From Candidatus Gastranaerophilales bacterium (GTDB taxonomy: Bacteria; Cyanobacteriota; Vampirovibrionia; Gastranaerophilales; Gastranaerophilaceae): a DNA stretch of 59,552 nt. The translations under genes and the position numbers were made by a program. Shown here one piece after another: positions 36,677-38,015 of this stretch (position 1 is its first letter; each line of letters starts with the position of its first letter). Under the pieces are notes generated by a model. That model was not told the DNA's origin. It saw only the letters and a program-made list of their open reading frames with translations, and did not search any database. The stretch is from positions 1 to 59,552 of the forward strand of contig CALUVG010000013.1 in the NCBI GenBank assembly GCA_944324165.1. Direction: 5' to 3'.

Positions 36677-36712
36677 CTTAACGTCTTAGCGTCTTAACGT
36701 CTTAACGTCTTT
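36677..36712. repeat. Tandem repeat of TTAACGTCT unit
   Basis: Four units of about 9 nt (TTAACGTCT with one TTAGCGTCT variant) run head to tail. The same unit recurs, on the minus strand, within the coding region of the neighbouring prepilin (37912-37946). Confidence 0.65.
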
Positions 36713-36793: not shown

Positions 36794-36826
36794 TTCCAGT
36801 AAGAGCCATAAAGCCTCTTACTGGAA
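36794..36826 (-). promoter_or_regulatory. 12-bp perfect hairpin just downstream of the variable-region stop codon (DGR homing hairpin candidate)
   Basis: TTCCAGTAAGAG (36794-36805) and CTCTTACTGGAA (36815-36826) are perfect inverted copies with a 9-nt loop. It lies 28 nt beyond the stop of the prepilin. On the gene's strand no T-run follows, so it is a poor terminator. DGR target genes often carry a hairpin/cruciform right after the variable region that aids mutagenic homing; stems there are typically shorter with 4-nt loops, so the match is approximate. Confidence 0.5.
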
Positions 36827-36854
36827 AAAATCGCGCGAATCAGGAATTGGAAAA

Positions 36855-38015
36855 TTAATCACCTAGGCAAACCGCGAGGAAGTAGCTGTAGTTGCGGTTG
36901 CTGAAGTCCCAGTACGTGGCGGTAGGGTAGAAGTAGCGGAGGTACGCGTAGCTCTGGCTGTACTCCTGCCCGGACCAAACGTAGAAGTAGGAGGTTCCGC
37001 CAGGTGATTGGGCTGTGAAGAGCGAAGCTCGATCGGCATCCCAGTTTGCATTAGTTGTGCTAGTTCCACCTTTTATTTCATCGGCATCAGGATATATGTA
37101 TGCCGCTAATTGTTCTAGCTGAGCTTGAGTTGGCATGTTTTGTACTCCGCCGCAGGCTCTTACTGCTCCTGCCCAATAATCTGAGTTATAGTAACATGCT
37201 GTTATTCCTAATTTGCCTTCTGATACCGCTTGGTTACATTCTTCTAATGTCATTGGACTATAGCCGCCGTTTTGTGGTCCTAATATCTGTGTTATGCACA
37301 TTGTATCTTTTAACTCAGGTATCATACACCCTGTTACGCCTGCTAATTGTTCTACGTTTATCTTACCGATATCTTTTCCATTTGTATTTGGATTCTTATT
37401 ACCGGATACATCGTATAATATAGCCATGCTGTTTGAGGTTGCGCTAAACTGGTTATTATACGGATCCTGCGTTGCATTCGGATTATATGCTATTATCGCG
37501 TTTACTCCGTTTGCAAATTGTACTGCTACTGTATCTGTGTCCCAGTCCTCTTGACCGAGTGAGGCTGCATTTTGGATTGTTGACATGTCTATTGGTTCTT
37601 CGCCATCGCTCCAAATTACTTCTTTTGCAAAACACTTAGTTATTTCATCACTGTCGCATATGCGGGTGATTTTGATATACTTTTTAAGTTCGTTTACAAA
37701 ATCCATGGTACTTTCGTAACCTGCAAGCTTTTCTTCTGTATTCATCTGGCGTGTTGCGACTTCAAGGCGTTTTGTAAATACATCTTGTGCGGTTGACCAT
37801 GCTTTTTCATTGTGGTTCTGGATTAAGTTCGGCAGCGTCAGCACTGCTACTATGCCGATGACCGCGAGGGTGATGAGCACCTCGGCGAGGGTGAAAGCGA
37901 CCCGTCGTTTAAAGTCGTTAAGACGATAAGACGTTAGGACGTTAAGTTCGTTACATTTTTTAGGCTCTGCTACTTTGTAACAAGTAATGCCTGTTTTAAG
38001 TTTTTCTGTTGTCAT
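36855..38015 (-). CDS. Prepilin-like protein with C-terminal DGR-type variable, DUF1566/C-lectin-like domain
   Basis: The 386-residue protein starts at ATG 38015 (GGAGAATAATCAT upstream). A 37-residue leader precedes the class III prepilin cleavage motif RRVAFTLAEVLITLAVIGIV (Ala at -1, Phe+1, Glu+5). The ectodomain holds paired Cys and a DVSGNKNPNTNGKDIG phrase similar to the prepilin at 17493. From about residue 300, MPTQAQLEQLAAYIYPD...YVWSGQEYSQSYAY...NYSYFLAVCLGD matches the DUF1566/Lcl C-terminal (C-type-lectin-like) layout. The last 46 codons use NNC codons in 31 cases, with ten of ten Tyr as TAC and four of four Phe as TTC. This is what adenine-targeted mutation of AAC codons in a template yields. 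It is likely a surface-displayed diversified receptor; no reverse transcriptase lies nearby. Confidence 0.8.
   Translation of the reverse strand: MTTEKLKTGITCYKVAEPKKCNELNVLTSYRLNDFKRRVAFTLAEVLITLAVIGIVAVLTLPNLIQNHNEKAWSTAQDVFTKRLEVATRQMNTEEKLAGYESTMDFVNELKKYIKITRICDSDEITKCFAKEVIWSDGEEPIDMSTIQNAASLGQEDWDTDTVAVQFANGVNAIIAYNPNATQDPYNNQFSATSNSMAILYDVSGNKNPNTNGKDIGKINVEQLAGVTGCMIPELKDTMCITQILGPQNGGYSPMTLEECNQAVSEGKLGITACYYNSDYWAGAVRACGGVQNMPTQAQLEQLAAYIYPDADEIKGGTSTTNANWDADRASLFTAQSPGGTSYFYVWSGQEYSQSYAYLRYFYPTATYWDFSNRNYSYFLAVCLGD
36858..36995 (-). other. Putative DGR variable region (VR)
   Basis: Read on the minus strand, codons 341-386 contain a dense run of TAC, AGC, TTC, CGC, GAC, GCC, CTC, ACC and AAC, all reachable from AAC by changing only the two adenines. 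Invariant codons between them (TGG, CAG, GAG, GGG, GTT) have no changed A, or are adenine-poor. The 3' end (about 36858-36880) is adenine-poor and could be the homing-initiation end. GC content is well above that of the flanking gene. Confidence 0.6.
37912..37946 (-). repeat. TTAACGTCT-type repeat inside coding sequence
   Basis: On the minus strand CTTAACGTCCTAACGTCTTA TCGTCTTAACGAC-like units encode residues about 24-34 (NELNVLTSYRLND) in the prepilin leader. They match the tandem array at 36677-36712, 1.2 kb away, in sequence and unit length. Confidence 0.6.

Follow-up and report, generated by a model that had tools for sequence, protein, structure and literature searches.

The hairpin lying behind the variable region (VR) of a pilin-like surface protein gene in the window, the whole 59,552-nt stretch of DNA analysed here, is very probably a target-site element of a diversity-generating retroelement (DGR). 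Hairpins at DGR target sites are known; new here is a long covarying stem with a fixed core and a free loop, in one genus of Gastranaerophilales, and our literature search for DGRs in Gastranaerophilales or Melainabacteria found no report. The role of such hairpins in DGR targeting has so far rested mainly on one phage system. With some 100 natural gene ends, many of them from a single genome, that together display compensatory stem changes, free loops and a fixed core, the recognition rules (stem versus loop, letters versus shape, VR versus template repeat, TR) become readable from evolution and testable. The finding also points to a very large DGR target set in gut Gastranaerophilales, with some 30 pilin-like genes in each genome. 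The window features concerned are these:

36855 to 38015, minus strand: putative DGR target gene, 386 aa; the N-terminus is of prepilin type, and the variable C-terminus ends in ...YFLAVCLGD
36855 to 36857, minus strand: stop codon of this gene, separated from the hairpin by 28 nt
36862 to 36986, minus strand: VR, compared with the TR of genome G003
36862 to 36878, minus strand: IMH-like 3' end of the VR, CTCGCGGTTTGCCTAGG, identical in the same-genus TR
36827 to 36836, minus strand: orphan arm (GCGCGATTTT, the 5' one) of a second type of hairpin, directly before the TAAGAG-type stem in gene direction
36794 to 36826, minus strand: hairpin with a perfect 12-bp stem and a 9-nt loop, in minus-strand order TTCCAGTAAGAG-GCTTTATGG-CTCTTACTGGAA
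36638 to 36672, minus strand (the gene strand): separate terminator-like, T-tailed hairpin, about 185 nt past the stop codon

The assignment of the window gene as a DGR target is supported by adenine-specific differences between its VR and a TR of the same genus. Five genomes of this genus were compared (G000, the 2.05-Mb, 55-contig draft genome of the window, and G001, G002, G003 and G004), and the reference TR was that of G003, G000 itself having yielded none. Over 122 aligned nt, all 18 differences (18/18) fall at TR adenines, of which there are 41 among the 122 nt. Most of the G003 VRs that align gap-free to the G003 TR likewise show 15-22 changes at A and 0-2 at other bases. The first 14 nt of CTCGCGGTTTGCCTAGG are free of adenine, and a 14-nt stretch without adenine, CTCGCGGTTTGCCT, is common to the 3' ends of VR and TR; the adenine-free homing-initiation region common with the template, for which an earlier note on this DNA had proposed to look, is thus present. 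Together with the occurrence of the hairpin family at VR ends described below, these observations support that note's reading of the hairpin as DGR-associated.

The arms of the inverted repeat lie at 36794-36805 (TTCCAGTAAGAG) and 36815-36826 (CTCTTACTGGAA) and enclose the loop at 36806-36814 (GCTTTATGG), the spacer towards the stop codon is 36827-36854, and the gene strand has no T-run past the hairpin. The earlier description of a perfect 12-bp hairpin, 28 nt beyond the stop codon, with a 9-nt loop and no gene-strand T-run is borne out in full by these coordinates. Counting perfect inverted repeats with stems of 12 bp or more and loops of 3-9 nt, the window contains four different ones, against a mean of 0.125 in first-order Markov sequences. 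Folded as DNA, the gene strand of the hairpin reaches -14.6 kcal/mol (z = -5.8), and 0 of 200 shuffles did as well. The TAAGAG core common throughout the genus lies at 36820-36815.

The 9-nt loop GCTTTATGG corresponds to a sibling stem end, GGC-TTTAT-GCC, carrying one C-to-G change, and the siblings of the window copy have a 12-14 bp stem and a 5-nt loop. Judged from this comparison, the long loop is a degeneration, by a single mismatch, of a stem of 14 bp enclosing 5 nt, and thus a local feature rather than a defining one. The remark in the earlier note that the loop exceeds the 4 nt described for such hairpins therefore holds for the window copy but not as a trait of the family. The window hairpin is furthermore fused, at the junction TTTTCCAG, to the 5' arm GCGCGATTTT; the complete hairpin of this second type, GCGCGATTTT-TCCAG-AAAATCGCGC, follows the cassette-linked target in G003 and, in G000, the targets of C23 and C41. 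Several G003 genes share this layout of a second-type 5' arm followed by a TAAGAG-type stem. A short ACGTCTTA-like motif also recurs around target genes, and positions 36677-36712 and 37911-37946 of the window form a 36-nt inverted pair, one arm of which lies past the end of the target gene and the other inside its start.

Comparison with the other putative DGR targets of the same genome, as the earlier note had proposed, and of the genus as a whole, revealed the same hairpin family with its conserved stem. Among 101 VR gene ends of the five genomes, with a stem score of 9 or more counted, stems were found at 82 and a T-run followed none of them (0/82). Per genome, stems were present at 18/29 (G000), 26/32 (G001), 17/18 (G003), 17/17 (G004) and 4/5 (G002) ends, where the G004 and G002 ends, like a few G000 and G001 genes, were fetched via the hairpin motif and are a biased sample, and one counted G000 stem (C29) is a different, dispersed repeat. 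As a control, 38 of 332 other gene ends reach the same score, 14 of these 38 with a T-run. The difference in position is sharper: stems starting at -6 to 0 of the stop codon occur at 65 VR ends versus 0/332 control ends. Most sibling genes have their TAA stop inside the 5' arm, as in GAC CAG TAA GAG GC-GAT-GCCTCTTACTG. Stems of the family are 10-16 bp long and of mixed composition, and the loops, mostly of 3-5 nt, have no consensus (for example GAT, GGA, TTT, TTGAT, TTGGT). A search of G000 with one arm returned hairpins behind VR ends. Copies of TAAGAGG..CCTCTTA also end VRs of G004 and G002 that belong to another VR family with another TR, there with stems of up to about 16 bp. Some VR genes have no intact hairpin, which counts against the target-site reading. 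A fixed hairpin of this kind was also lacking in several VR families from other genera in the order, and we therefore claim the variant for this genus alone.

Selection on the stem was assessed in 45 distinct, sequence-aligned hairpins, with shuffled and slid structures as controls. Paired cells made up 85.7% versus 73.8% in shuffled and 35-61% in slid structures, cells changed on both sides numbered 77 versus 33.0 and 2-12, and the covariation score was 0.281 versus 0.093 and at most 0.053, the slid controls retaining the relatedness of the gene ends. The base pair preceding TAA is seen as GC, CG, TA and AT, and TAA and the following G are nearly invariant. Since covariation exceeds both kinds of control, the aligned sequences indicate that base pairing of the stem is under selection. 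The 101 VR ends are related to one another through duplication and recombination, so that the counts are not numbers of independent events.

On the template side, the three TRs had no comparable stem at the corresponding position, and the VRs beside two of these three do carry stems, GCGCGATTTT/AAAATCGCGC and GGGGCGATTTT/AAAATCGCCCC. The targets adjacent to core modules have GCGCGATTTT-TCCAG-AAAATCGCGC in G003 and GGGGCGATTTT-TTCAG-AAAATCGCCCC in G004, the stem covarying between species.

In phage BPP-1, an inverted repeat behind the VR is needed for efficient retrohoming; the structure of its stem matters rather than the letters, and both the size and the sequence of its GRNA loop are critical (PMC3240598). 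In an E. coli reconstitution, deletion of the hairpin impaired homing severely though incompletely, and the authors suggest that the hairpin holds the target open (PMC12875486). The hairpins described here resemble those of BPP-1 and other phage DGRs in forming an inverted repeat just past the VR and IMH, near the stop codon (Guo et al. 2011, PMC3240598). As in BPP-1, pairing is kept while stem letters vary, but here the letters of the TAAGAG core are conserved too, which sets the family apart. VR and hairpin are some 3 nt apart in the class that overlaps the stop codon and 35 nt apart in the window, which is within or close to the 4-34 bp of phage DGRs (PMC3240598). The stems are longer (10-16 bp and partly GC-rich, versus 7-10 bp and GC-rich in the BPP-1 type), and the loops, mostly of 3-5 nt, lack the 4-nt GRNA of that type. 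The misfit of the window loop with GRNA counts against the target-site reading, given that this loop is critical in BPP-1. In most genes of the present family TAA is built into the stem, whereas the stop codon of BPP-1 must occupy, at least in part, the 4-bp spacer ahead of the stem, since changing that spacer removes it.

The matching anatomy, with an adenine-free 14-nt stretch followed by a hairpin on the target side only, leads us to infer the same role as in BPP-1. In such a mechanism, the hairpin or cruciform would form as DNA beside CTCGCGGTTTGCCTAGG, the homing-initiation sequence, and would mark or open the gene end, and not the template repeat, for replacement of the VR by mutagenised cDNA. 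That the hairpin promotes homing is suggested by its likeness to BPP-1, and that it acts as DNA by the same analogy and by how seldom one-sided G-U type changes occur (8/629 cells). What the GRNA loop does in BPP-1 may here fall to the TAAGAG core.

Covariation is compatible with structure in DNA or in RNA, and conserved pairing would be equally expected of an mRNA 3' hairpin around the stop codon with a part in translation termination or in protecting the transcript. The overlap of 65 stems with the stop codon fits such an RNA-level role. However, the stems are specific to VR genes, none of the non-VR gene ends having one at the stop codon, and the window gene and others of the spacer class have their hairpin beyond the stop codon with TAAGAG still kept. 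One-sided G-U type changes are rare though an RNA would tolerate them, and the analogous BPP-1 element works in the target DNA (PMC3240598). We therefore consider an RNA element improbable.

The hairpins might also be passive hitch-hikers without a role in homing, either as 3' ends copied along with duplicated targets or as mere recombination joints between paralogues. VR, upstream part and tail are indeed mosaic between genes and species, and the window hairpin itself joins two hairpin types. Yet passive copying does not explain why both sides of the stem show compensatory changes, why two VR families keep the hairpin at a fixed place, or why TRs lack it, which makes this explanation quite improbable. 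An intrinsic terminator of the target genes, to which a strong stem soon after the stop codon would be suited, is highly improbable and was rejected, given the lack of T-runs and the separate T-tailed, terminator-like hairpins found downstream in 82/96 loci (in G000 mostly at +45 to +230); the earlier note's proviso that the hairpin might simply be a terminator is thus answered in the negative. Group IIC introns, a related class of retroelement, recognise the stems of their target hairpins by structure over letters (PMC3240598), but those hairpins are terminators with T-runs beside an insertion site, whereas the hairpins of this genus lack T-runs and go with the replacement of a VR. A repeat dispersed after unrelated genes, the other proviso of that note, was rejected because nearly all of the listed TAAGAGG..CCTCTTA copies whose context was read in a six-genome motif scan sit at VR gene ends.

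VR genes number about 29 in G000, at least 32 in G001 and about 20 in G003, and G003 contains a complete DGR, composed of Avd (bAvd, PF22296), TR, and a reverse transcriptase (RT) that carries IGNLTSQ and YVDD motifs. The 55-contig assembly of G000 yielded neither a DGR RT nor Avd nor TR, which counts against the target-site reading as regards activity in the window's species, and that of G001 neither an RT nor a clear Avd. The sole PF00078 match in G000 is a retron-like RT at C10, and a DGR core beside it was rejected because of this type and because there is no TR nearby. This RT (YVDD; L039:4480-9400) lies near tyrosine-recombinase-like and helix-turn-helix-like genes and resembles a small mobile element. 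None of G000, G001, G002 and G004 has a core at the site equivalent to that of the G003 core, beside a HAD-type gene, and all four are contiguous there, so that the core is either elsewhere and unassembled, or lost. A phage source was rejected as well, the exact TR pattern and the exact hairpin pattern giving no match in viral contigs, where RT relatives are only 36-67% identical. Many G000 contigs end at VR genes (for example C3:87, C41:189, C23:30497, C8:77981 and C48:5828), and assemblies of such genomes are thus likely to lose or scramble DGR parts.

In G004 the DGR parts are present as separate pieces: an isolated DGR-type RT is surrounded by housekeeping genes, and two Avd-TR modules without RT lie elsewhere.

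C9:49789 (L071/L257), C12:9508 (L198) and C19:12186 (L194) of G004: lone RT and two Avd-TR modules

With the RT unlinked from both modules, action of the DGR in trans within the genus is plausible. Chromosomal DGRs with several targets are known from Treponema denticola, with up to 7 (PMC4891356), and from Thiohalocapsa PB-PSB1, with 15 targets and 21 VRs (PMC10907252). They resemble the present case in their many targets, some of them unlinked, with VRs matching a distant TR, in the evidence for trans action, and in that some genomes keep targets without a core (PMC4891356, PMC10907252). The present genus differs in the size of the target set in G000 and G001 and in the covarying hairpins that these gene ends share.

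With this in mind, one may speculate that the hairpin is a tag of sequence plus structure, in which a trans-acting DGR reads the TAAGAG core of the stem instead of the loop, and that gene ends swap such tags by recombination, thereby becoming targets or ceasing to be so. This extension of the target-site reading is possible but rather doubtful. If true, dozens of unlinked genes would be addressed by one or a few cores, with the stop codon built in.

The idea that VRs without a hairpin are frozen was given up, since genes and species exchange VR, upstream part and tail with one another. G000 C24:28080 (L053) and G001 L151 are 100% identical in upstream part and VR and diverge in their tails after the VR end, which suggests a recent transfer with its joint at that end. 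Elsewhere, VR genes of G000 (C18:40306-40470, L054; C22 near 30600, L049) and of G001 (L131, L261) end in ...GCGGTATGTATTGGAGAATAATGCAC, and at C18 and C22 an older VR end with its hairpin lies about 140 nt further downstream, as if an insertion had hit the homing-initiation site.
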